Source: Cloeon dipterum (lineage: Eukaryota > Arthropoda > Insecta > Ephemeroptera > Baetidae). From it: a stretch of 64,000 bases of DNA. The stretch covers positions 25,964,335 through 26,028,334 of the forward strand of contig NC_088788.1 in the NCBI RefSeq assembly GCF_949628265.1. Reading direction: 5' to 3'. A program made the translations under genes and the position numbers. The notes under the pieces were generated by a model that saw only the letters and a list, made by a program, of their open reading frames with translations, did no database searches and was not told where the DNA came from. This document shows, piece by piece, positions 1,022-51,395 of this stretch; the stretch's first letter is position 1; the number at the start of each line of letters is the position of its first letter.

Positions 1022-2968
1022 CCAACAGCCCCCTCTCCGCTCTCCTTGGCCTCTTCGCTCTTCTCTCACTCTCTTTCGCCGCAGACACGCAGGAGTGCGC
1101 GGCCCCCTCCGCCCCTCGGGACACCCTGGGCGCCCTCTCCAAACCCTGAGCCAGCGTAGAGAGGAAAACGTGAAAGACGCGACCACGGGGAATTCCCGCG
1201 ACCGCTCTGCGAAACGGGGATGCTAATAGAACATTTTAAGGTGTCGTTTGCCGAAGCATTTATTTATTACGCCTCGTGTCTGTTACACACAATCTTTTAA
1301 AGCCTCAGGGTGTACTTCTACAGAGTTAGGATTAGAATGGAATCTCTATTTTCCTCAAAACTGAAAGGATATACTTTCTAAATTTTTAGAATTGTTTCTT
1401 TTTTTTGTTTCATGCAACTCTTGTTAAAATTTATTCATGAGATCAATAGTTTCAACAATTCGATCTAAGAAGGAGTGAAATGAGTCGAATGAATATTGAA
1501 AAATTATGTCAAACAGTACAAACTCTCGTTTTCGATTTATATACACTATGAACATTATTTGTTTTGACAACTCCGACATCTCCAAAAAAACGACCGCAAG
1601 AGCTTGGATACAAACAAAATAAGCAAAATCACTCTGCAAATAATGTTATTAGCAAATGGCGGGTCACAACAAAGAGAAGAACATATATGCGCTCATATAC
1701 ACTGTCTCAATTATGAATCGGTAAATTCCCGTTGACGTCATAGGTTTTCCTGTGATCGTCACTTTTATTCCTCCACCATGTTCACTAATTCGTACAATGC
1801 AGTGGGTATTTGAGTATTTTTTTTCTTAACTTATGCCGACGAAATTTTTAAGACAGAATCATTGATTGAAACCTTTGGGTTTGTGAGACAGTGATCCCCT
1901 AAGAAAACAAATCCTTCAATCTGGTCTTAAATCTGATGCATCAAAGCGTTGATGCAAAGCAATTTTTAGTATTCTTCCACACTTTTTTCCCAATTATTGC
2001 ATTTTCACAATATTTTTTTAAGTTAAACGCGTGTTTTCTATAATTTTTCAAGGTTACAACACAATAATATTTGAAAAACACCTGTTTTAAATACTTTCGG
2101 TAATTCATTTTTGAGCCTGTGCGGCATCCTTTAAGAATTTAAACTCCTAGAATACTTCATAGGCGTATTGTAAAAGGGAATTCAGCTTATGCTGACGTTT
2201 ACCTCTTTACTAACAAGTTGAGTATTTTTTCCAAAACAACTTTTCAAAAACAAAATGGTTTATTTTGTTTTTGCTGTAAAAACACAGAAACTTTAGTGCC
2301 ATTTCGAAATTTATTTTTATCTAAATAATAGACCAATGTTTTTTATCTGACTGGGCCATATAAACGTTTAAAATTTAAAGAGATGAGCATGAGTGTGAAG
2401 AAACAAAAAAATACTGCAAGGGCTGCGATGCAGTTACTTCAGACTAGAAAAGATTACAATAACCCTGGAAAATTTGTAACCTTTGCTCAATGTATTCCTC
2501 TGATTTCCAAAGGTTCGAATTTGCGGATTGACTTATGCCACTTAAATCGGAATTTATTGGACGAAAAGAGATTTTAAAAATTACACGATTTTTGGTAAAT
2601 CAGTATAAGTAATTAATTTGTAGACGTCCCTGGTAGATTTGTCACCGCAGCTGCCACTTATTGTTAGCAAGGTGCAGCCTTGGTGCTTTTACAAGTGAAC
2701 GGGGTTGCTTGGTCACTCGTCGCTCCCCTATGCGGTTGTGCTTGGCGCACTTCCCCTCCGCTTCTGCCGCATTCGAACGCGATGTGTGCACCTCTAATCT
2801 GGAGCTGCGCGCGAGGAGGCGTGCGGCTGCCACCGCAATTGCCTTTGAATCGCCCAGCCCAAGAGACGGACGCCAGCCGCCGCTCGCTGCCTGCCCAGGT
2901 ACACACAAACACACTCTCACCATCTTCGCAGGTAATTTTCTGTCCTGCTCTGGCCCACGTTTCGGCGG

Positions 2969-3062
<94 letters not shown>

Positions 3063-6000
3063 GGTCGCGGAGGAGGGCAAGAGCAACAGGTGTCGGCCGG
3101 CCAATCGCGCCCGTTCGTACGAGCTTCCATACTCCGCACCGGTCTCGGTTCGAAATCTGCCGGATGCAAATCTGCACTGGGTCACGAGTTCAGTTTATTT
3201 CAGTTCAAGGGGATTTTTAAATTTGTCTTACTCTCGTTCGAAAGTAGCTTTTTCAAGGGAGAAAATTTCCAAGGACAAAATCAAAGTTTGAATTTTTCTC
3301 TCTGATGATTTATTTTTTATCTAACAATTAAGTATTGATTAAGTGCTGAGATTTCCGCAAAACAAACTAAAACTGAAAGTTTTGCTTGATGTGCCAATAA
3401 TAATTTTTTAAAACTCTGCAATGTCAACTTGATAAAAATCTCAAAATAATATCGATCAAATGAAGGCTGTGTATTAACAGGATTAAACACGAATATTAAG
3501 TCCCGCAAGCTAAAAGCGCGTTTTCCTCACTGGCCTGGTCCAATCGCGTTTTTATCAGTTTCTGCTGGATCAAACCAAGGCTGACACACAGGAGAGTTTG
3601 TCGTAACACACGATTTGTTGACGAAGTCCTGGAGAGCCTATATACCAGTTGTCCAGCGAAGAAGCGAAATGGAGGGGACTTAATTACCGTTACGATAAAA
3701 TGCCAATCAAAACTTCTAGAATGTTTTTATATTGTAAAACGTTTTTTGAGGCACGCGTTCTTTACGTAATATAGGTAGTATTTTTATTCCCTTCTCAGTA
3801 TTCCCTCTCTCAGGGAGTTCCCGCCCACAAAACCATCATGTGACAAAACCAAAGAGGCACGTTGTTGATTCGTAGTTTTTGTTTTCACTGAGTAAGAGAA
3901 GGTATAAACAAGGGTCCCATCGGAAAGATAAAATGATCATATAATTGCTCTGTCGTGAGTGCGTAGTTTACTTTCATTATAAGTTATTTTTTTATTAATT
4001 TTAACACCACGAAGGGACACAATTTTGCGAATGAAAAAATAAACAAACAACTTGCTTGTTAATCGTAAGAAAAAATTTCAACGTTCTTATGTAACGTGCA
4101 AGTAGTGCAACCTTGATTGGTTCAATAAAATTTAATTTATATGGTTGTGAATCTAAATATAACACATGAAGCCGGATGCAAAACGAGTTGGATTTTTGAT
4201 CTACGCGCCTTCCAAAAATTAAGCGTTGCGGCTTCCCCGACGAAAAAGCCGATAAGGCCGCGCGGTTTTTTGTTATTTTATGTTGTCACATGCGTTAGGT
4301 AAATCCGACTGATAAGACACGTTAAATCATCATTTCGCACGAAAAAATTATCTTATACACTTTGCACATTTGCGGCATTAATTCGTAAATTCCTCTTCAG
4401 ATAAGGTGATTCATTTTTTGCACCGCCCAATGCTGGGCGAGTGGCGTGCGCGAATTCGCGGTTTATTGAACCAGTCAGTGAAAAAGCAGCCAACGAGAGA
4501 ACTCTCGCTGCTGACCGCGAGCGCTGGCTTTTTCGCCCGCCGCGATGCACTGAGCTAGGCCAATGTAACGGACTTGATCTTGAAATTGATCGCTCATTGT
4601 ACTCGCCCCGTGCGTCTTAATGAGCCCGCGCGATCGTAATCTCTGTGCTGTGCCCTGCAACTTTTCAATCTGTGAAAGGAATCTGCTCCGCTCATTCGTA
4701 GCCACGAGCGCAATTTTTCATTACTGCTGAAAAAAAGTTGATTAACGAAACGTCAAAACAACTTGCTCGCGGAGCGGAGCAGGAAGTCATGCCAGCACTC
4801 TCGCGCGAGCATATATATGTTATTAGACGCAGATTTCAAACGGAGACTCATCTCGGCCACTTTCGGTCGCCGATATCATTCCGAGAGATGCAGTGCGCGC
4901 AACGGACCCGTTCATCTGCGACGTCGGCCTGTGCTAATTGGCCTTGCGTTAGGAAACGTGTCAATGTGCGTATGATTATAAATAAAATCTTGCGTGCATT
5001 ATAATTTCGCAGCGTGTCCGCTTTCGCTCGGAATTTTAAATCCAGCACCGTGGATTTCAGTTACTTTCTCACAATCAGAGCTAATTGCAAACATATCTGA
5101 ATCCCAGTGTTTCCCAAAAGCAAACAGTTTTCCTCCACGATTTAAATTATTCGAATTGTGCTAACAAGAATAATTATTTTGCAATACTCGGCAAAATCAT
5201 TGTTACTTTAAGGGTTAAAAGGTTGCCAGGTTTGGGAGCTTTTAAAATGGCGAGCATAACTGTCTCCTCAAGGGACATCTTATTATCATAACAACAAGAG
5301 TTTAATTCTCCTTCACAAGACATACGATATTGGATGGATTTCGTCGAGAGAGGTATTGAAAGATGTGATGAGAAAATGCTCAAGCGTCGTGCATTGTAGA
5401 GAAAATAGGAACAATCTGAAGCTTGGCCATGTTAGAGGAAAGCTGTACAGAAAAAATGTGAAAATCCTTTTACCTTTACTTAATAAATTATCTCAAAAAT
5501 TGGGACAAAGTTAAAATTAAATTTGCAAAATAATATATACTCCGAAGTTTGCATGCTATTCAAACGGCAACCGAAGTGTCTCCCTGTTCAGGATTAATTT
5601 CACCGTAAGAGAAATTTAACTCATAATTCGCACGCTATTAAATAGATCGCGACAAGAAGAATCAAGCGATCAAATAACTTACAAATCGTTGAATTTTTGA
5701 GAAATTTAGCAGGCCTAGATGGTAAAATACACTTGCAGTGAAATTTTGTCAAAAAATAAATATAAAAAACATTTTGTGCTGTTTAAAGGATTGCAAAATA
5801 CGTTTTTGGGTTTAGTAAAACCAGCTAATAAATTATCTGGTATAATTTTCATTAGACTACAAGATAATAAAAATATTTGAAAAGAGGATTCATTTGCAAA
5901 AAATGCTAACAATAAATTTGCTATTGATTGTGCGAGATATCCTCTCCTAATTTCATCGGTAATTCGCAGTTCTAGTCATAAAATTACTGGGTGTATGAAA

Positions 6001-33884: not shown

Positions 33885-36800
33885 TTACCGGTCTCTGGGC
33901 AAGATGTAGGTGGAACTTCTGAGGTTCTGAGATGCGTAAAAAAGAATATAGGCTGCGTTGGAACGCACACTTGATTCGGAGATCTCAGACACATCAGCGT
34001 CGTCAAACTTGTACCACCTGGAATAGTAAATTAATGAATGAGCACTTTTTCCTTGCACAGCAACAGCGTCAATAGGTGGTTAGCTAAGCAACTCTGATGT
34101 AATATGATTAAGAAAATTATTCATTTTTTCCATCTATAAAAAAAGATTAATTTTCTTGAGAGACTTCTCGACAATAGGTGAAGCACTTACTTTTTGAAGG
34201 TTGCGCTCCTGCTGTATGTGGTGTAGTGGCCACCTTCCATGGTGCCATAGTGGTTGGACACGGCATACAAATCGTAGAAGGTGTGTTTCTGGTTTGGTCT
34301 CACTGTGTACTGCGTCATCGTCAGCCTCTGAAGCGGAAATTCCACTAGAGTGTGCTGCTTCCGCCACGCGATGTCCTCGCAAAATCTAAATGATGAATAA
34401 AAATCACGGTTCCATAAATTCATACCTGACATCAGCAGAGCAACTAAAATTATTAAATATTTGAAAAGTGCGACCACTCGAGGTTGTTTTCATGTTGAAT
34501 ATAATTAAAACCAGGCTTCATCCTCGTTGTCAATTAAAGAAGACGAATTTCTCTTTAATTGACAACGAGGATGAAGCCTGGTTTTAATTATATTCAACAT
34601 AAATTTATTAACTTCAACATTGTTATCAAAAAGAAAAACGAAAGGCAAAACAAATGGCAAAAAATAATCTAATTTAAATGACACTTTCGCTCAGTTATAA
34701 TTACTAGTAATCCAAGTTTTTTTGAAGTAGAATGTTATTTTTTGTTGTGTTTATTTACATTTTTCTTTTATGTGAGATAATAATAGCTCAATAATTCATT
34801 TTGAGGATATCATGACGTGATTACCACAGGCTGCAAATGGAAAATAAACTTTTATGCTTTTGTGAGATTGCTGATAGTCTACAAATGATCAACTAAACAG
34901 TAAATTAAGGTAACATACCGTTTGAAATGAATGACTAGAATTGGTGGAAGTCGCCAAATATCAAACTTTTTGGTGGCGCGGCGTGTTAGCTTGCACTTAG
35001 GACACCGCCACTCTTGAATAGGCTCTGGGGCTAGGTACAGGTTCAAGCAGTCCTGCAAAATGTTGAGACAGTTAAATTATTGCGACTCAAAAGCCACTGC
35101 TACTCACATTTAAGGAACATTTGTCTGAATTCTGTGGAAGCACAAGGGTGAGCGTGCTGAAGGGCTCGAAAGTTACAGACTCAAAGGAGCACGAGTTGCA
35201 CCGCACTGTTGAGCTCTGCTGGCCAAAGAAAAGGTGTAGGATCCGTGAGTCGTTGCACTTTTCAAAATCGTGCCAAGCGATTTTAGCCGACTCCTCCATA
35301 TCTTCGATTTGCTGCGGCGGCTCCTCAGGTTCTTGGGCAGGAGGGATCCGTTGCTTGATGTGGTGCTTCTGCACAAAATGATAAGTAAACACTGCGATTT
35401 CAAATCACAGGGTTTTTCTTTACCTTGTTCAGGTCATTATGGAGCCAATCCATCAGTAACGTCAGAAACTCGTGCGAGTCCTGCTGTCGGACACCACCAA
35501 AATCAACGTGATATGATCCAGCCGCCCTCTAAAAATTCTTTGATTGGATTGTGGTTGAAAATATGGCAAGATTTACCTTAAAGTCTCTGCAAGCTATCGT
35601 TCTATACTCGTTAGCCCACAAAGCGCGGACCACAAGAGCCAGCTCTTCCACAATTTGTCCCCGCGTTTTTGTATTAGTGTTCACATCATCCCTGAAAAAA
35701 TATGACACAGACGTTTTAAGATCAATTTAATAAAAACAAATACATTTTAATCAATAAAACTAAACCCATAGGAAACAATGGAAGGCTTAAATTTAAAAAT
35801 TTAAAAACAAAAATTAATATCATACGCTCTCGTAGCCATTATAAAATCAATTTAACTAGTTAAATTTACCCACGGGTTTCCTTTTTCATTTTTAAAATAC
35901 ACTTGAATCAAAATCTAATCATACATTTAAGATATGAGAAAAAGTCCATCAATTTTCCGAATTTTCCCTTTAAGAGAAGCCTAATTTTTGAGTTAAAAAT
36001 TTTCAGGAAAACATTAGAAAAATAATCCAACACATTTTATAATCCAGAGCAAATGAAAGAAAAAGCAATGATTTTTATAAATTTAAGGCTCCTACCTGTA
36101 CGATCCCTCACAGAAGTAATTCCTTAATTCATTTGTGTTGGAGATGCACTGAACGATCGAATTCATGTAGCACGAGTTGCCTAGATTCTTTAGTCCAGTG
36201 AGGCCGGGTCCCTGTAAGTGAAGCACGTTGTTTGCATGAGGAGAATGTAAGTCAGTGAAAACGAAACAACAGGCGGCAGGCTGCATTTTGAGGAGTGAAC
36301 CAGATACACGCCGAGACCGCGCGTTCTAGTAAGAAAGGTGTTATGGTTTTTGGCTTCTAACAATCTAATTACTCGCGTGTTTTACGTAACGCGCCTCTTG
36401 TCAACTTTTCCACTGCAGAATGCCAAGGAGGCAGTTACGCCGGCCGTATCGAACGTAACATCGCATCAAATTAAATTTCATTTTGTAACGAGTACAAACG
36501 CTTCTCTCTTGGAGAATTATTACAAATGGGTTGCATTTCACATTTTTACGATTACTACCGTCATGACATCAGAAAAAGACGAGAGTCGGCAAAATAATTA
36601 AACGCTTTATCTGGTACATAATATTGACTGTTTTTGAGAAGTGATAGCTCTGACATGAATTAAGAAATTGCTTCACTCAATACAACACAATACGAATAAG
36701 AATTTTGGAGAAAAGTTTGCATGCTAATTTGAAATCGTGATTAACAAGAGAAAAGTTAAGAAGTCGACACTTAAGGTTGGTTCTTCCATGAAAATGAAAC

Positions 36801-39800
36801 AGACTTAATTGATTCTCGTTTCTTTAAAATTTTCCTCTTCTTTACATCTTCCGGTACTAATGGCTTGGGGTACATAGCTTTATGGGCTGATATACATTAT
36901 TACAGCAATTAATGTATATCTCCTGTCGTACATTTTTCTCTCTGCTAAATAAACTGCAACGTTACGATTTGTATCGTTCAGATTTAAAATTTGTTATCTC
37001 ACAATTATTGGAATTAATAACTAAAGAAAAAGCGCAAATATTTACCCTGTTGAAGGGAATACAAAGGAGAAGGTTGGAGTTGGCAAGTAGGACCATTGTG
37101 GTTCACTTCCGCACGCAGCTAACCCATTTAAGAGAGCACTACTTTTGATGCTGCTGACACTTGACCGAGATGCCACAGACAACGCACTCGTTCGCACACT
37201 GGACGCAGAAACGTGCCCCATCATTTTTGCGATTTCAATCGGCCGCGCGCCGCCCCTTCCTGTCTAATGGTATTACACCGATCCACCACTCGCGGCAAAT
37301 ATAGGGATAGATGAAACGCCGTCGACTAATTTTGTTATTGTTCGTGTCTATTGATCGCAATCAGATCAAATTCGACTTACAACTTAATATAGGACTTCAT
37401 AGCTATTGTTAGTATATATCTCATAAGTTCCCCGATGAAACAGCTAAAAATACTAAATTTTTCATTTTTGCAATTTTTTGAAACTGAACTTAATAAAAAA
37501 TAGAAAACATTAACTGGAATAAATCACAAATACAACACTTTCAAGGCTTAGCCCTTAAGTCATCTCATTGAAGGTTAATACTGTCACGCCAAGCACGTGG
37601 TCAATTAAAGAGAAACGTGATTTCCAAAACGTGTCAACTGATCAATAATAACTCGCCATCACTCGCGAAAAGTAAAAATGTGACTGCCACGCGAGGAACG
37701 TGCTCACTATTCTCACCAAGCAGGAGAGAGATACAGATATTACAAATTATAAATAAGAGCTATCATAAATATTTTTGTAAAGACAAGCAATTGCCTTCTT
37801 CAATTCTTATTGGAGTTGATGACAAAATCCTATTTGCCACTTAAGTTTTTCATCAATTAATTTAGTTTAATTTACCGATAACACAAACATAAAGATGCCA
37901 AATAAGCCCCTGCCGAGGAATAAAAACTAGAGCGAGTGGAAAAAGATGGTAGGAACCATATTTCCATTTCAATTTTACCATCCAAAGAAAAAGCAAGAAG
38001 TAACTGACTAGCATTCAATTTAAATATATCAAATTCTCTATACCTTGGTGCCATAAACTGGACTCAGATCTCTTTTTTCTACCCGAGGCAGGAAGTGTTC
38101 CCTGTGAGGCGCTGGTTTGGTTCTTCGATCAAACTGCGGCATATCATCATCCATCTGTAACAATACAGCATGCAATGATACACAACATTAAATAATCAGA
38201 CAAATTTAGTATGTATTATTATTTGCATGACTTTGGCAAGAGAAAACAACAACAACAATATACACACACACACACACACACACACAAACTTCTGATATCA
38301 CTCACATCTTTAATATTTGGAGATGAGTGGGATCGAGAGAGGTTGGATGACTCGGAGGGTTCCCTCTTCAAAGGCTCAAATCGTGGTGGTTTGTTAGCTG
38401 CATTAAATTAACAGAAAATTATTTTGTGTTTGCAATAACATGGGTTCCATACTTCTTTCTGAACTATCAGTTGGCTTTGACTTTTCCACAAACTTTGAGG
38501 GCGGTGGCGGGATACGAGGAATCCTGTGCAAACATAGATGGTGATTAAAATTAAAAAAAATACGAGGAAAGATTACTTTTCGCTCTGCAAAATTCTCTTT
38601 TTGGCCATTTGGGTGGTAACTGCTTTCAGTTTTCCCAATTCTTCATCTTTGGCGTCAACTTCCGGCGGCACTTTTACCCCAGGTGTTTCTGATTCAGTTT
38701 TAATTCTAGTTTTCAACTCATTGTTTTCAAGATCCTGCAAGACTTGTATTTATTTTATTTCAACACGTTTGGAATGAAAATACCAATTTCTTGCACTGTT
38801 CTTGCAGGCGCGCAATTTCATCTAAATACTCCTGTTCCACCATCTTCCGCAGCTCATCGTTTGCCTCATTCTCCTTTGCTTGCCGAAATTTCTACAGAGA
38901 CATCAATATGAAAAAAGCTAGTCAATTAATTGCAGGAAAACTCACCTCCCACTTCTTCTCTACTTCCAAAAGTTCCTTCTGTTTATCTACCGCTTCATTT
39001 AAAACAACGTCCTTTTGTTTTTGAATCCTTCAAATGCATACAAAAATTAATTTCCTACAAAAGAAGAAATCGGCATTCGTACTTATCAACCAGTTGCTGC
39101 TTCAACGTCCTGTCAAATACTGGGATGCTAGGCTGCGTGGTTGCAGCTGGCAGAATTTCAGACACAATTTCAGGCTTGATAGGCTGGACAAAAGCTTCTT
39201 TAACAACAGGAATTGGTGCAGGTTTCAAGCTTCTGTTGAACAGCGGGGAAGGATTGGATGGCGACGATTGGCTCAAAAGGTCTGGATAATCGATGCTATC
39301 TGAACAAAAATCATGCAGTCATGGATAGGAGCTAAAATTATTTCTACCTAAACATATAAGATCGTCCAAATCTTCAGGAGAATGTTTAGCTTCCACCCTT
39401 GGGTTGGTTGTTATTGACGGATACATATCCAACCACTCGGAGTACCCTTTGTGAAGAACTAACGGTGTTCTTTCATAACGAACTCCAATGTCCCACTGAA
39501 AGTATTTAGTCAGAAACCACTCTACATTGAAACAAAGCTTAGGCAACCTTGAGCAAGATGGTTTTCAAGTAATAGATTTCAGACATTGGCAACATGCCCT
39601 TAAGGGTGCTGTTCCAGTCTACAAGAACTACATATTTGGCTCCAATTCTGGTCTTCCACAGATTCCTTGACTCAGCAGGCAATTGTCCCTCAAGTTTGGT
39701 TGTAGTGATTCTAAAACACAAGTCAGAAAATTAGGAAAATACTAGGTAAGAGTAAAAGTATTATTACCCAGGCTTTACAATCTCTTTGGGAACGCTAATA

Positions 39801-41013
39801 ATGCAGGGCACATCTATGTGCGATTCTTGGAAATCAGCTTGCGGTCGGACATCCATGATCAACAACCCACCAGTGCCTCGGAATCGATTAACCAGCTCGT
39901 TCAGCTCTATGCAAGTCAACTCATCAGTGTAATCTTTGGCTTTGTTGGCTAAAACAAACAAATTTCAAATTAATCAGTACAACAAGAGGTTCAAGCTTTG
40001 ATTCTCAATTATTATGTTTCTTTACTACTAATATTTTTATTCAGGGACAGTTAACAAATTTTATATTTAATTTGAAAATTTTTTAATTTGGATTATCCTC
40101 TTTTCTGTAGTGAATTTTCAACAATAATTATTTCAGTTTCATACTTCATTGCAGCGTGATACAAAATTCTTATAATATGTACAAAATATTAACTTTACTG
40201 CAGAAATTCAGAGCCACAAAATGAATGAATTTATTTCTTCTTGATTTCTTTCAAGGCAAATTTAATGCTCTTAACAAATTGGATGTAACAATCAAATTAT
40301 TAAACAATTTCTCAAAATTTTTGTGTTGATTTATAGCGCTTTCAATAGATATTATTTGGAACATTTCAAATTTATTTTATGAAACAAAAAACATCAGCAT
40401 TGCTTTGGCAAAAAAATTCAAATACTTTTGTCAACAAACTTACATGCTGCTCCAGCAAAATTGTTGCTCGGCGCTACAGTAACCTCTGGCGGGGCCTTAA
40501 CGGCCTCGATCGCTGCATTTCGCAGTAGTTTCTCCTCTTCCGCGGTCTTATATCGTCTTTCAAGGATCTTAGTTAGAGCTTCTGCTTGCTCTAAGCACCT
40601 TTTAATGCTAGTATTGCTGAAGACGGACTTGGTATCCTCGCGTTTGATGTCAGGTGATCGGCCGATTTCCATAGCCAGGTGGGTGAAGCGCATGAACAGA
40701 ATATAGGCCTGTTCTTGATCACCTTTTTTCAAATAATCTTCTGCTGTAGCCGGAAGCTTTTGGGCACTTGCCAACAGCCTGGAATGAATTAAAATTTGTA
40801 GTCATTAAATTGTACTGAGTGCAGAAACGACTTGGTCCTTAATTTTAACATATTTGTCAGACTCAACGTTTTGATAATAAAACTAAAAATAAACTGTATT
40901 TATAATTACATTTTAGCTGGTGTCGTGGTAATAAGCTTTTGCATGTTACTGAGCTCATTGTTCAGGTCTTTTAAGGACGAGTACTTCAGTGCCTTGAGAT
41001 AAACTTCTGGCAT
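33885..41013 (-). CDS. USP8: USP8/UBPY ubiquitin carboxyl-terminal hydrolase
   Basis: Endosomal deubiquitinase acting with ESCRT-0 on receptor sorting. Nineteen exons join in phase to 942 aa: 40910-41013, 40444-40778, 39768-39948, 39548-39710, 39348-39495, 39083-39299, 38946-39027, 38784-38891, 38577-38734, 38453-38523, 38306-38397, 38044-38154, 36096-36211, 35577-35691, 35424-35528, 35108-35368, 34919-35052, 34191-34385, 33885-34017. The USP8_dimer domain spans 1-145, the rhodanese-like domain about 150-300, coiled coil about 383-470. SH3-ligand motifs PxF[DN]RxxK[PQ] start at 329, 370 and 559. A 14-3-3 site RSHSSP is at 544-549. The catalytic domain has Cys604 (GNSCYMN), His887 (GGHY) and Asp904/905, plus zinc-ribbon Cys759/762 and 806/809. 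It appears intact. An acceptor just before the ATG implies a 5' UTR exon upstream. Confidence 0.96.
34492..34600. repeat. Perfect inverted repeat: 49-bp arms, 11-nt loop
   Basis: 34492-34540 is the exact reverse complement of 34552-34600, with loop 34541-34551. It lies in the USP8 intron between the exons at 34919-35052 and 34191-34385. In RNA it would form a fully paired 49-bp hairpin. It could be a very young foldback element, a small-RNA hairpin, or a sequencing/assembly foldback artefact. Confidence 0.95.
36212..38043 (-). other. Long USP8 intron before the catalytic domain
   Basis: 1.8 kb intron between the exon ending at 38044 (SH3-ligand region) and the one beginning at 36211 (catalytic Cys). 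Mostly AT-rich, with a GC-richer patch near 37050-37260. No nested gene is supported. Confidence 0.6.
38262..38286. repeat. (CA)n microsatellite, about 25 bp
   Basis: Short CA dinucleotide tract in a USP8 intron, about 20 bp from the donor at 38304-38305. Confidence 0.9.
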
Positions 41014-42097
41014 CCTGTTAACCTGCAAACAAGTACGTATTAGATTAAAAATAGTAAAATTTATTGGCCTTAAGTCTACAGCACTACCAAACGTCAATTG
41101 ATTCACTGCTGTAGACTTACATAATGGATAAACAACGATGCAATAAAATAATTTTCCGCTTGATGACCTACATATTTTTAAATATAGACAAGTCGGCACT
41201 GTCAAGCAAGTTGGTCCAACGGAAAATGTACCCACCTTTAGCAACTAAAAAGGGCTGGCAAGGAGGAACAAAGCGAAACGCATGTCCTGCAAACGTTGGC
41301 CTCGCACTTTTGGTCCGCTGGCAGCGAAAAAGGACGCGAATTCGTCACACAGGCGTCAGTGTTATCCACTTACCGCTTTTTATAATTACAATTATTTGTA
41401 GTACGGTTTCACAATGTCCTCCCACAGTTTTTGTTTCGCACAAACCAAAGAGATCCTCTTATTGCTGAAGAGTAGAAAGAGTTGTCTACGAGGCGTAAAA
41501 AGCGAATAAGTCAACACATTTAGAAGACACGGGAATGAAGGGGGAGTTGCATTCCAAAGAGGGCCTCTTAATATTTACATTGCTCTCGGGTACTACAGAA
41601 TGCAAAATGTAAATTGATTAACCTCTTAGTTTTTTGTATCGCATTAGATGCCAGCACTAGACGTAATAACGTCCAATCAGTACAGTATCGCAATTTGCGT
41701 GGCTGCGTGCATGCTTGGTGCAGCTTCAGCTTGGCCCAATCAGAAGCCCAACCTGGCCATCTAGTGTCCTAAGAGTAAAACTCAACCATACCAGCACCTG
41801 ACCTAACTCAAGCATGCGCGGTGCAAATCTATATGTATTGTTTATTTACCTATGTGAAAGGAGCGTTGAGGAGCAGCTGTGGAGCACTGACGGGGGCTAA
41901 GAGTTTTTGGGACTTCTTTTAGTTTGGTACAATATATACCTAATTTTTTAAGAAACAAAAATTTTAAATTTGAATTTAGAAGCCAATAAAATTACTTTGC
42001 TGATTTTCTTGGACAAAGACGAAAATGTGGTAGCATAATACGTACATAATAGTTTGACTGCGACACTGCTTTCAAACAAGAATTAAGAGCCATCAAC
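41014..42097. other. Divergent promoter region of USP8 and the C2H2 zinc-finger gene
   Basis: 1.1 kb separates the two start codons. The USP8 leader is spliced: an acceptor (TTTGCAG) at about 41023 precedes its ATG, so a non-coding first exon lies somewhere in this interval. There is no convincing TATA box on either strand. A shared bidirectional promoter is likely but not shown. Confidence 0.5.
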
Positions 42098-45000
42098 ATG
42101 GAACCCGTGAATAAGGAAGACGAAAGTAGTGTCCTTCTTATGAAAGACATAATGGACATTGAGGATCAGCAATGTGCACTCGAAGTCTATTCAATGCGTA
42201 ACAATGACGAGTTTGAAACATTGCCAGGTAACTCGAATAGATATGGGTTCCATACAATATAAATTTTGCTCTACATTATTCTCTTACAGACTTCCCAGAT
42301 GAAATTCACATTGACATGAACATGTATCACGAAGAATTCCCATACGGTCTTGAAGAGATGACATCAATACCAAAAAGGATCACTGCAGCAAATCAGGTCT
42401 ACACATAACTGTGTCCAAATCGTTTTTGATGTTTACCTTTTATGTAAATAAATTTCTCATCCCCCAATGTCGTGGTTGCAGGTTTTGCCTTTGTTCAAGA
42501 GTGTGTATGAAGACCGCTCTCAAGAGGAAGAAATTAGCCTGGCCAACGAGTGGCAAGAAATATTCCAGTCTCTGTCGACTGGCTCCATCAGAGACCATTG
42601 TGAGTGTCTGCTGTGCAACTGCTTTTTTGTCACTCCATCAAAACTCTTGAATGTTCGTAAGACAAGACCTTGGTGACACCCGATTTAAACTAAAAAATAT
42701 TAAATTCCAGCATGTCAATGTTTCTCACCCCCACTTTGGGTCCAAAGAGCTGCAGCATTGCTATGTGTGCAGCCAACGTTTTGTGTTTCCAAAAGCCTTG
42801 TCCCTGCACCTGGAACAACATCATGGGCTCTTAGCTCCGCACCTCACCTGCTCAGTTTGTTTCACGCAGCTCAGTTCCCAGTCTGAGTTAAAGGCCCATA
42901 TGCGCAAGCACAGTCTCATCGAATCCTGCCAATTTTGCTATAGTCATTTTCCCTCCAAACAGCAATTGGCCCAGCACCTCGCCTCTGTGCACGTCAAACA
43001 GTTCCCATGTCCATACTGCAGGAAGTCTTTTGACCACAAAGCAGTCTACAGGTGATTATGGAGCAAACCATTGGCTGCTTCAATTTTAAATTATCTATTT
43101 TGTCTAGATCCCATTTAGCCAGGCATGAGTCTTTTTCCACCGCGCCCTGTGTTCACTGCAAATGGAAACCAAGTCAGCAGTTAATTGATCCTGAATTGGC
43201 CATGCTGCAACACTTGCACACATACCACACTCCAGACCAGTTGCAGTTTTTCTTTGATACAGTTGTGGAAGAAGACAAGCATGAACTGGAATTTGAAAAT
43301 TTACTAAGAGCCTATGAAGAATCGTCTGCATCAATTTTAAATGTATGCCAAATATTCCCAAACTCTTAACAGTAAAAACAGATTCATGTTTTTAGGTGTC
43401 AGAAGAAAGTCACTGCCTTGAGGCAATTTTGAGTAGCGTAGAAAAAGTGGTCGGAGAGCTGAAAAATACAGAGGTTTGTATGAAAGCTTAAGCAATCCCA
43501 AGAAGTGTAACTTTGGGTTAATTTAATCAAGGATGTCGACACCCAAGTTATTCGATTGTGCAAACTATGCACTAAGGAAGTCCAGAGTCTGGATGAAATA
43601 CCAGACCATGTGCAGGAATTCCACCCAAAAAGCAAGCAGTGTCCCATCTGTAAGAGTAGGTTTCCTACTGTAAAAAGAGCCCAATGTCACACAAGACTGC
43701 ATCTGAAGACTGAACCTGAACAAAAGGAATACAAGTGCCAATTCTGTGACATGGAATTTAAAGATACTGGCAAGTTGAACAGACATTTAGAAAACTCTCA
43801 CAAGGTTTGTAGTTTTTCCTAGACTTTCTTGGAGAAGAGAAAAATAACATAATTTTTTAGATCAGCATTCTTGTCAGACCTTTCAGCTGTTCTGTTTGCA
43901 ACAAATCCTTCAAGCTAAAAACCATCAGGGATAAGTAAGTATGAAAATTTTATCATTGAATAATTTTCATAGGAATTTTGTGTTTTAGGCATCTTTCAAC
44001 CCACCAGGAGATTTTTAAAGCCAATAGAGAAGAAAATATCTCACTGAGATGCAAATTTTGCAACTGCATCTTTATCAAATCCAGCTATCTTGCCAAACAC
44101 ACCGAGAAATACCACAGCAGGTTTTATATTTATGAGTTGTAAAAATAATGTAACTTTTGCTGTTTGTATCTTCTACTCAAAAGATAAATAAATACACTTT
44201 TGATAGGCACAACGTCAGTCCATATATTATAAAAATATTAAATTTGTTGATTAAAAACAATTAATGCTCTCTTTAGGCTAGAAAATCTGTCATCTATTGT
44301 TGAATAATACTTTACTCTCTTCTTACGTGCCAGTATTTTTTCCACCAAACCCTTTAATCCGCAAAATACTAAGTGCTAACTTGTTTTTATATTTCAGTGC
44401 TCTCTCATCTGCTGATGGAAAAGCAAGCTTTCAGTGTGCGCACTGCAAAGAGCATCTCAGTGACTTGTCCAAGCTCAAGCGGCACATGGTGTACAGACAT
44501 GGGGCCGCGTCGGACAAATGTCGGTTTAAGTGCAACCTCTGCAAGGTCAGTTGCCGGACAGCAGTGGGACTGAAGGTTCACATGCGGACACACACCAACT
44601 TAAAGCCTAATGAATGCAAAATATGTGGCAAAGGATTCAACCGAACCCATGTGAGAGATTAACAGTAGAATTAGAAATTTATAAATTTCGAAGGCTGTGG
44701 ATTTTAGGCTTTGAATCTCCACATGAAAATCGTGCACTCAATCAACACACACCTTAAGCAAAGCAAAAAGATGTACTTATGTGCCCAAAGTGGGTGCTCT
44801 AATCAGCAGCCAACTTACGCTGCGATTCTGAAACACTTTCTCCGGGCACACCGTGATGTTAAAAGATTTATTTGCGGTCTTTGCGGAGAGTGGTAAAATA
44901 TCTCCCTTATTTCTAATTCTGTCTCCTCAGTGTTGGTTTCCAGCTACTCCCAAAACCAGGAGTTGAAGATCCACATGAAGAACAAACATAATTTAATTGC

Positions 45001-47015: not shown

Positions 47016-47021
47016 TTTATT
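47016..47021 (-). terminator. Polyadenylation signal of the tandem USP8_dimer gene
   Basis: TTTATT on the plus strand is AATAAA on the minus strand, about 120 nt after the stop at 47144..47142. If both this and the plus-strand signal at 47075-47080 are used, the two convergent mRNAs overlap at their 3' ends. Confidence 0.45.
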
Positions 47022-47141: not shown

Positions 47142-48374
47142 TTATTTTTGGCTTGGGTTTGCTGTTGCTGCCACTGTATTTCCTACATGTCGCTTTTCCT
47201 CTGTGGCAGTCTTGTATTGCTTTTCTAGGATTTTGCTCAGCTTCTTGGCATTCTTTGTGCACTTTCCAACACTACTTTTGTTGAACATGGACTTGCAAAC
47301 CTCCTGGTCTACATCCGGCAACTGGCTGATATCCTTGGCTAGGCGAGTGAAGCGCGTGAACTGGATGTAGGCCTGTTCATGGTCGCCCCTGTTCAAGAAT
47401 TCTTCTGCCCTGGCTAGCATCTTTTCAGCATTTTCCATTATGCTGAAAAAAATTAGCATTTTATGAGAAGACCATCAAAGCGTTTTCAAGGTTCAAACTT
47501 GTTGGGGGTTGGAGCGACCTTCAACTTTATTTTTTGGGAAAACAAAAGCTCCATGGTGTGAATATAATAAACTAATACCTTTGGGGTTTTGTCCTCATGA
47601 TTAAGTTGTGCATTATCTGAACTTGATTGTTTAAATCATTAATGGATGAGAACCTCGGCGTCTTTTGATACACTTGTGGTTCATTGTCCGCCTGCTTATG
47701 AAAACAAAAGGTGAATACAGTCACATTAAAAAATAATTGTGCGAACATAAAGATAGATTTACTCATTTTTAAATTTGACCTTCATAATTTTAATAATGCG
47801 GCTACCCTTTGATTAAATTCCACCAAAACGGAAAATTTACCTCGGGCTGTTTATAAGCACTTAAGCAAGAGAGAAGAAAACACCACGGTTGTACTCCCGA
47901 CTCCATCCTTGCAGTTTGCTGCTGTTCGCTGCGAATTTCGACCTCCGTAGGTTCACAGCGCGTATTGTTCTCCACGCTATCAGTGGTCTTATACCGCCTT
48001 TCAAGTATCCCGGCCAGCGCATCAGCCTGCTTAACGCACTTCATGACCCTGGTATTGTCAAAAATGGTCTTGCACGCCTCTTGATCTGCGTCTGGCAACC
48101 GACCAATGTCCATGGCCAAGTGGGTGAAGCGTTTGAAGGCGATATATGCCTGTTCTTGGTCACCTTTTTTCAAGAAATCTTTCGCTGTGGCTGGCATCGC
48201 TTCAGCTATTGGCATGATCAACCTGAAATAATTACGAACCATCGGTCTCAAATCGACGAAGAAAACTACAAACGAAAAATACCTTGCCGATGGTGTCTTC
48301 ATGATTAATTTGTGTAAACTCTTGACTTCATCGTTCAGTTCCTTTAAGGAAGAGAATCGCAGAGATTGGGGCAT
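47142..48374 (-). CDS. Tandem USP8_dimer-domain protein without a catalytic domain
   Basis: Four exons join in phase: 48283-48374, 47841-48222, 47579-47691, 47142-47442, giving 295 aa. Residues 1 to about 115 (MPQSLRFSSLKELNDEV ... LERRYKT) and about 159 to 290 (TPRFSSINDLNNQV ... LEKQYKT) are each a complete copy of the USP8 N-terminal dimerisation domain. Copy 1 is closest to USP8, sharing [11 protein letters not shown] and RFTHLAM. Both copies keep the USP8 intron position and phase (phase 2, before the conserved helix), so they arose by DNA duplication. Copy 2 lacks the initiator ATG at the aligned position and joins copy 1 through a phase-0 intron of 149 bp, supporting one gene rather than two. 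No rhodanese, SH3-ligand or protease part is present. It may bind USP8 or ESCRT partners as a regulator or decoy (inference). Confidence 0.82.
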
Positions 48375-49701: not shown

Positions 49702-51395
49702 ATGGCCTCAGTGCTGTTAGCAGAGAACCAAGAACCCGGTTTTTCCTTCGAAAACTGCAGAAGGTAAGCTATTTTCAGTGTTGTGGCACATAAAATTTGG
49801 AATTCAGAAATATTTTCCTCCATTATACAGTAACTTTAAGCGTGTGTGAGCTGAAATTTGTCGTCATTTTGCCACCGCGTTTGTTGCCTTGTCACACCCG
49901 GCTAGCGATTGTTTTATATTCGAAAAAGAGATTAAAAAAGTCAAATTTAAAATTTCAGGAATGCCTTTTTGGCGAAGAAGGGCAACGCTTTGCCGAAGGC
50001 GACCAAGACAGGAACGACCATCGTAGGCATTATCTTCAAGGATGGCGTCATCCTCGGCGCAGACACCAGAGCCACTGAAGACACGATTGTGTCCGACAAG
50101 AACTGTTCCAAGATCCACTACCTGGCCAAGAACATGTAGTAAGTGTCCTTCACATGAATGTTTAAATCCAATTCATATCATATATGTATTGTATTATATG
50201 GAAGTCCCCATTTTTGAGAACGAATTTTTTAAATGGCTTGTCTATTGACCATTTGATTTTTAACTGACTTCACTCAAATCGCATCATTGCACATTTTAGC
50301 TGCTGTGGTGCCGGCACTGCTGCGGACACCGAGGTGACCACTCAGATGATCTGCTCGCAGCTGGAGTTGCACCGGCTAAGCACCAACCGCGACATTGTGC
50401 CCGTGGTGACCGCATGCAAGTTCTTGAAGCAGATGCTGTTCCGCTACCAGGGCCACATTGGCGCCGCCCTTGTCCTTGGTGGCGTGGACAACACTGGTCC
50501 ACACTTGTACTCGATTCACCCACACGGCTCCTCTGACAAGTTGCCTTACACTACAATGGGCTCTGGCTCGCTGGCAGCCATGGCTGTGTTTGAAGCAGGC
50601 TGGAAGCCTGAATTGACTGTAAGTTTTGGCTTGCACTGAGAAAAAAAATAATTCAAAAATTATTTGAAGCAGTTTATTTCAAGAGTTTGAGATGTTTGAT
50701 TGATTTTTTAAATTGCCATACTTGCATAAGTGGTGATTTCAAGACGCTTGATATTTTTTGGACCAAAATCGCTTGAGTTATTACTTGACAATTTTATCTC
50801 CTTATTAAAAAATAGGTCATTGACGCGAAAATTTAAAGACAGCAGCTTCCTGGACTAGCCTGGACCAATTTGTTTCGCTTGCACTTCAATTTTTTCAACT
50901 TTCTGTCTCACAACTGGCGCAGCTTGGCCAAACTCAGTAACTCAGAGCGGCTGACTGTTACCTCTATTAAATAATGCATTATAGATGTAGAATAATTCAA
51001 TTATCAAATCATGTTAAATGAGTTAGAGATGAATATTGAATAATTTTCAATATCTTGGCTATATTTACTGCTATTATTTCCCCAATTAAATTTTTTCCTT
51101 GGAAATTTAGGAAGAGGAGGGCAAGCTGCTTGTGCGAAACGCAATCGCTGCTGGCATCTTCAACGACTTGGGCTCAGGCAGCAACATTGACGTTTGTGTG
51201 ATTCGGCGGGGCTCTGTCGATTACATTCGACCTTACGAAACGGCCAACCTTAAGGGAGAGAAGCAAATGTCTTACAATTTCAAGAAGGGAACCACGGCCG
51301 TGCTGGACGTTAAAACAGTCCCCATCATCATTGAAGATGTGGTTGTCCATCACACTGGTGAATCAGCCGTTGAGTCTATGGACACCTCCTCTTAA
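49702..51395 (+). CDS. PSMB7: 20S proteasome subunit beta-2 (trypsin-like), PSMB7 family
   Basis: Catalytic beta-2 subunit of the 20S core, cleaving after basic residues. Exons 49702-49763, 49959-50138, 50300-50618 and 51111-51395 join in phase to 281 aa, close to the 277 aa of human PSMB7. The propeptide is residues 1-39; autocleavage at Gly39-Thr40 (KTG-TTIVG) exposes the nucleophile Thr40. The DTRAT block, GAGTAADTE, and SGSLAAM follow in normal order, and the C-terminal arm that wraps beta-3 is present. The ATG at 49702 has a good context (ACCATGG). The gene is convergent with the IP3 kinase gene. Confidence 0.98.

Follow-up and report, generated by a model that had tools for sequence, protein, structure and literature searches.

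Does a group of four exons lying upstream of USP8 in the mayfly Cloeon dipterum form a gene of its own, how did it arise, and what would its product do? The window, meaning the whole stretch of 64,000 nucleotides that was analyzed (contig NC_088788.1, positions 25,964,335 to 26,028,334), contains both loci on the same strand. A first-pass annotation had proposed that the four exons encode one 295-aa product with two USP8_dimer domains and no protease. Joining the exons (Table 1) across GT/AG introns gives 888 nt in a single open frame, comprising 295 codons and a terminal stop without internal stops or frameshifts, so the proposed gene model holds; the alternative frames of the same spliced sequence contain 21 and 18 stops. 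The stop codon of this tandem gene (47142) lies 6.1 kb upstream of the USP8 ATG (41013), in agreement with the distance of about 6 kb originally given.

Table 1. Positions of the tandem gene, USP8 and neighboring features, numbered from the first nucleotide of the window.
Feature	Position	Strand	Description
Exon 1	48283..48374	-	ATG and N-terminal segment of copy 1; donor AAG/GTATTT, phase 2
Exon 2	47841..48222	-	MIT three-helix core of copy 1 and linker of about 48 aa; donor GAG/GTAAAT, phase 0
Intron 2	47692..47840	-	149 nt; join fusing copy 1 to copy 2; one ATTAAA at 47794
Exon 3	47579..47691	-	N-terminal segment of copy 2; ancestral ATG out of frame; donor AAG/GTATTA, phase 2
Exon 4	47142..47442	-	MIT three-helix core of copy 2, stop codon
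AATAAA polyadenylation-like signal, after stop	47016..47021	-	Consensus match only
USP8 first coding exon	40910..41022	-	ATG at 41013, 9 nt of 5′ UTR after acceptor, phase-2 donor; parent of exons 1 and 3
USP8 second coding exon	40444..40778	-	MIT core; parent of exons 2 and 4
C2H2 zinc-finger gene	42651-43055 and 43511-43822	+	Pfam matches; outer limits by eye; between USP8 and tandem gene
Proteasome beta subunit	starts near 49951	+	Pfam

The domain content was evaluated with Pfam. The whole predicted protein matched PF08969 (USP8_dimer) over two stretches with an E-value of 4e-24 and 85.4 bits, against a Pfam cut-off of 24.6; scored separately, copy 1 (exons 1 and 2) reached 40.5 bits and copy 2 (exons 3 and 4) 51.5 bits. 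At E-values up to 10, 15 families matched the protein, and only PF08969 exceeded its curated cut-off. Neither a protease domain nor the rhodanese and UCH families scored above cut-off in the 295-aa product. The genome was also scanned for PF08969 exon by exon, and the best candidates at E ≤ 0.001 comprised five exon matches in three genes: one in the USP8 of the window, one in each copy of the tandem gene, and two exons on contig C5 that belong to an AMSH-like gene, the MIT of which finds human STAMBP at 2e-32. Pfam's generic MIT model, PF04212, did not match the tandem gene at E ≤ 10, and the five matches that it gave across the genome do not include this gene; nor did it match the N-terminus of USP8 itself at E ≤ 0.01. 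A protein search of the genome for further copies returned only the gene's own exons and USP8 (five matches, E ≤ 1). The DNA of the exon 2 tail and intron 2 matched only itself, indicating a linker that is not an abundant repeat at the sensitivity of that search.

Folds were predicted with AlphaFold using single-exon translations from the unspliced sequence (exon 2 and exon 4) and 3-row alignments. The three-helix core of each copy is contained in one exon, and the mean pLDDT was 73.2 for copy 1 (linker below 50) and 78.3 for copy 2. Both models had the human USP8 N-terminal domain (2A9U) as their best PDB match, copy 2 with an E-value of 3.8e-4 and a TM-score of 0.88, and copy 1 with 4.8e-3 and a TM-score of 0.59, the compared length here including the disordered linker; copy 1 had no PDB match at E ≤ 0.001 (best 0.0048). 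After 2A9U, other MIT domains matched, namely VPS4B and the MITD1 or VPS4 MITs. In these models, both core exons adopt the three-helix MIT fold, like the human USP8 N-terminus.

The boundaries of the gene were then considered. The acceptor-like motif TTTACAG was seen by eye 6 nt upstream of the exon 1 ATG, so a 5′ UTR intron in front of the coding sequence is likely. Donor sites were scored using an approximate weight matrix; the exon 2 donor was the top-scoring donor-like site of the 3-kb stretch scored, and the exon 3 donor was weak, with 11% of GT sites scoring equal or better. A second AATAAA, at 47146, overlaps the stop codon. Intron 1 (48223-48282, minus strand) is 60 nt long, which is divisible by three, and contains no stop in frame; if it were retained, the product would gain 20 residues and the frame would stay unbroken.

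The fusion of the two copies depends on intron 2. Copy 2 had been reported to have lost its ATG at the aligned site, which is correct for the reading frame: an ATG persists there in another frame, where just 17 codons are open. In frame, copy 2 has no ATG before one within the first domain segment, and a start there would give 111 aa; exon 3 is in frame only when read from the phase-0 donor of copy 1. With only 149 nt, intron 2 offers little room for a terminator and a promoter between two genes, which counts for one fused gene. A different possibility is that copy 1 alone is functional, as a protein with one MIT ending within intron 2, and that copy 2 persists only as a remnant, relaxed or dying. 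In favor of this, read-through past exon 2 would meet a stop after 12 further residues, an ATTAAA stands at 47794, no usable start is present in copy 2, and the copy 2 branch gave no rejection of neutrality (see below). However, copy 2 has no stop or frameshift across 137 codons and scores above copy 1 against PF08969, and the donor that such a protein would bypass is the best one scored, so we consider this reading unlikely.

The relationship to USP8 was examined through intron phase, exon layout and phylogeny. The intron inside each copy is in phase 2, the same as in USP8, and the first coding exon of USP8 and both copies have the same layout, with the start 9 nt after the acceptor and a phase-2 end. 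The first-pass annotation had described the intron position and phase as matching USP8 exactly in both copies; the phase does, and the position in copy 1 agrees within one codon, there being one extra codon beside the junction. In a 6-row protein tree, copies 1 and 2 are sisters (UFBoot/SH-aLRT 96/95) and both group with the USP8 of the window (96/93); human USP8 falls outside, and the two AMSH rows stand apart, with the AMSH-like gene of contig C5 grouping with human AMSH. This topology suggests, provisionally with six rows, that a single USP8-derived gene arose first and was doubled later. NG86 estimates over the three pairs gave dS of 1.5-1.8 and dN of 0.38-0.44 (128 or 134 columns, some of them in the poorly aligned tail), and dS values of this size indicate that the duplications are old and near saturation. 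The anatomy and the tree together show an origin by duplication and fusion, for which the order of events would be as follows: a partial tandem duplication of the first two coding exons of USP8 gave an independent gene; this gene was duplicated once more, and the second exon of copy 1 became spliced to the former 5′ UTR acceptor of copy 2.

USP8 itself was recognized by PF08969 over its first two coding exons (65.2 bits), a sub-threshold rhodanese match in the exon at 39764-39964, and the start of UCH at 36092-36325, above the Pfam cut-off. Of the eight stretches of the window compared with Pfam, two, 39539-39730 and 38573-38749, had no match. The proximity of the two loci raises the possibility that the upstream exons are alternative 5′ exons of USP8, transcribed from an upstream promoter and giving isoforms with an extra or replaced MIT. 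Three chimeric joins were tried, and all keep an open reading frame: USP8 exon 1 preceded by exons 1-2, and USP8 exon 2 preceded by either exon 1 or exons 1-3. This compatibility is partly inherited, since the phases are homologous. Nevertheless, such isoforms would require a roughly 7-kb intron across the opposite-strand zinc-finger gene, and exon 4 has its own stop followed by AATAAA signals, which makes this explanation rather improbable. The zinc-finger gene (42651-43822, plus strand) stands head to head with USP8 and tail to tail with the tandem gene, and carries two ZNF451-like sub-threshold Pfam matches.

Selection on the two copies was estimated with a three-branch codon model over 109 domain columns, which gave omega values of 0.20 for USP8, 0.105 for copy 1 and 0.60 for copy 2. 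A single ratio across all branches was not rejected (p = 0.086). Neutrality (omega = 1) was rejected with p = 0.0004 for copy 1 and with p = 9e-7 for the two copies taken jointly; for copy 2 alone, whose omega profile extends from about 0.2 to above 2.5, it was not (p = 0.52). Copy 1 is thus under purifying selection. Constraint on copy 2 is probably relaxed or shifted, because in simulations at omega 0.22 its neutrality would have been rejected in 20 of 25 cases. The reading in which the gene died recently and neither copy is functional could draw on the weak exon 3 donor; the joint rejection of neutrality and the open 295-codon frame both stand against it, and we regard it as very improbable. 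When neutral decay of copy 2 was simulated at the fitted length of 0.76 per codon, the frame was stop-free in 3-7% of runs, and with indel:substitution ratios of 0.05, 0.1 and 0.15 it was intact in 0 of 2000 runs each, where the ratios and a 20% in-frame share are assumptions. For recent decay, the probability of an open frame was 0.24 at t = 0.25 without indels. The intact frame of copy 2 therefore argues against long neutral decay and leaves room for a recent loss of constraint.

Literature on the human domain was used to consider what the product might bind. The human USP8 MIT binds IST1 (KD 0.5 uM), CHMP3 (12 uM) and others weakly, and AMSH binds 10 of 12 ESCRT-III tails (PMC9477494). A MIM1-like motif has been described, with contacts N71, K74 and E103 taken from AlphaFold 3 models (PMC12057046). 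Deletion of the MIT removes the endosomal function of USP8, abolishing rescue of CTLA4 turnover (PMC11486831), and a review proposes that AMSH may outcompete USP8 for ESCRT binding (PMC6925526). The USP8_dimer domain is an MIT domain whose best-measured role is the binding of ESCRT-III tails, and its dimerization is disputed. In the 6-row alignment, N71 and K74 are not retained even in the USP8 of the window, so only E103 is informative; that USP8 and both AMSH rows also have E at the equivalent position, copy 1 has D there, and copy 2 has K. Copy 1 would therefore keep a USP8-like acidic contact; in copy 2 the charge is reversed, and the domain has probably changed to a different ESCRT-III ligand or taken on a structural or avidity role.

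From the gene model, the predicted product would be a 295-aa, catalytically empty protein with MIT domains in tandem. On endosomes or at abscission sites, these domains would bind ESCRT-III proteins by their C-terminal tails; this binding would compete with USP8 and AMSH, or pre-occupy their sites, bringing no deubiquitinase activity; bridging of ESCRT-III tails is the alternative to competition. Competition for, or bridging of, the tails is favored because of the known MIT ligands, the effect of MIT deletion and the E103 comparison. The combined proposal, origin from USP8 exons and a catalytically empty protein competing with USP8 and AMSH for ESCRT-III tails, has in our estimation an even chance of being correct. 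The first-pass annotation had suggested titration of USP8 or its partners; titration of partners is plausible, and dimerization as its mechanism is less supported. A direct heterodimer with USP8 would be consistent with the crystallized human USP8 N-terminus being termed a dimer (title of Avvakumov 2006, from the reference list of PMC8576004) and with the co-immunoprecipitation of two tagged USP8s (PMC8576004). However, full-length USP8 is cited as monomeric (study cited in PMC12057046), and the partners of the domain with measured affinities are ESCRT-III tails (PMC9477494), so titration through heterodimerization seems to us quite unlikely. A further reading is that the gene encodes a dedicated and long-lived, lineage-specific decoy for the USP8/AMSH branch of ESCRT, a tandem-MIT protein that consists solely of USP8 docking modules and serves as an inhibitor or adaptor, which we put forward tentatively, as a possibility short of an expectation. 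Within it, and just as tentatively, one USP8-like and one charge-reversed MIT might set how much deubiquitinase reaches ESCRT-III.

The tandem gene was compared with known MIT proteins. With USP8/UBPY (N-terminal MIT, PF08969, PDB 2A9U), its parent gene, it has in common sequence family, fold, intron phase and neighborhood; it differs in that its predicted product has the domain twice and lacks rhodanese and UCH, and in the Lys at the E103 position of copy 2. The AMSH/STAMBP MIT (PDB 2XZE, 9LE4) belongs to the same Pfam family and binds ESCRT-III, but it is a single MIT on an enzyme, and the AMSH-like gene of this genome is separate. The MITs of LIP5/Vta1, CAPN7 and ULK3 are not known to be of the USP8 type, and each of these proteins has an extra domain (VSL, calpain and kinase, respectively). 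These three have two MITs in tandem that are able to bind ESCRT-III tails according to PMC9477494, whereas binding by the tandem gene's product is predicted. In the same source, MITD1 is a non-protease MIT protein binding many ESCRT-III tails. MITD1 differs from the tandem gene in having one MIT and a PLD-like domain. The general tandem-MIT architecture is therefore already known, so the suggestion that no such protein had been described stands only for the enzyme-free USP8-type pair: a protease-free protein with two USP8-type MITs was not found among the titles listed in a literature search that largely covered papers outside subscription. The genome has IST1 and LIP5/Vta1 genes, and the tandem gene as a LIP5 replacement was rejected because a separate Vta1 gene is present.

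If the gene is expressed, it would be a natural experiment in which the docking modules of a deubiquitinase were freed from the enzyme and long retained. It would then also show that regulation can work through competition for ESCRT-III tails, a process deduced up to now from tables of human binding data, and would provide a genetically encoded competitor for USP8 recruitment.

Elsewhere in the window, the first exon of a cytochrome P450 gene was detected at 581-1222 on the minus strand (PF00067, 51 bits), and a long GA/CT simple repeat at 2642-3305 gives long spurious open frames (RERERE / SLSLSL).
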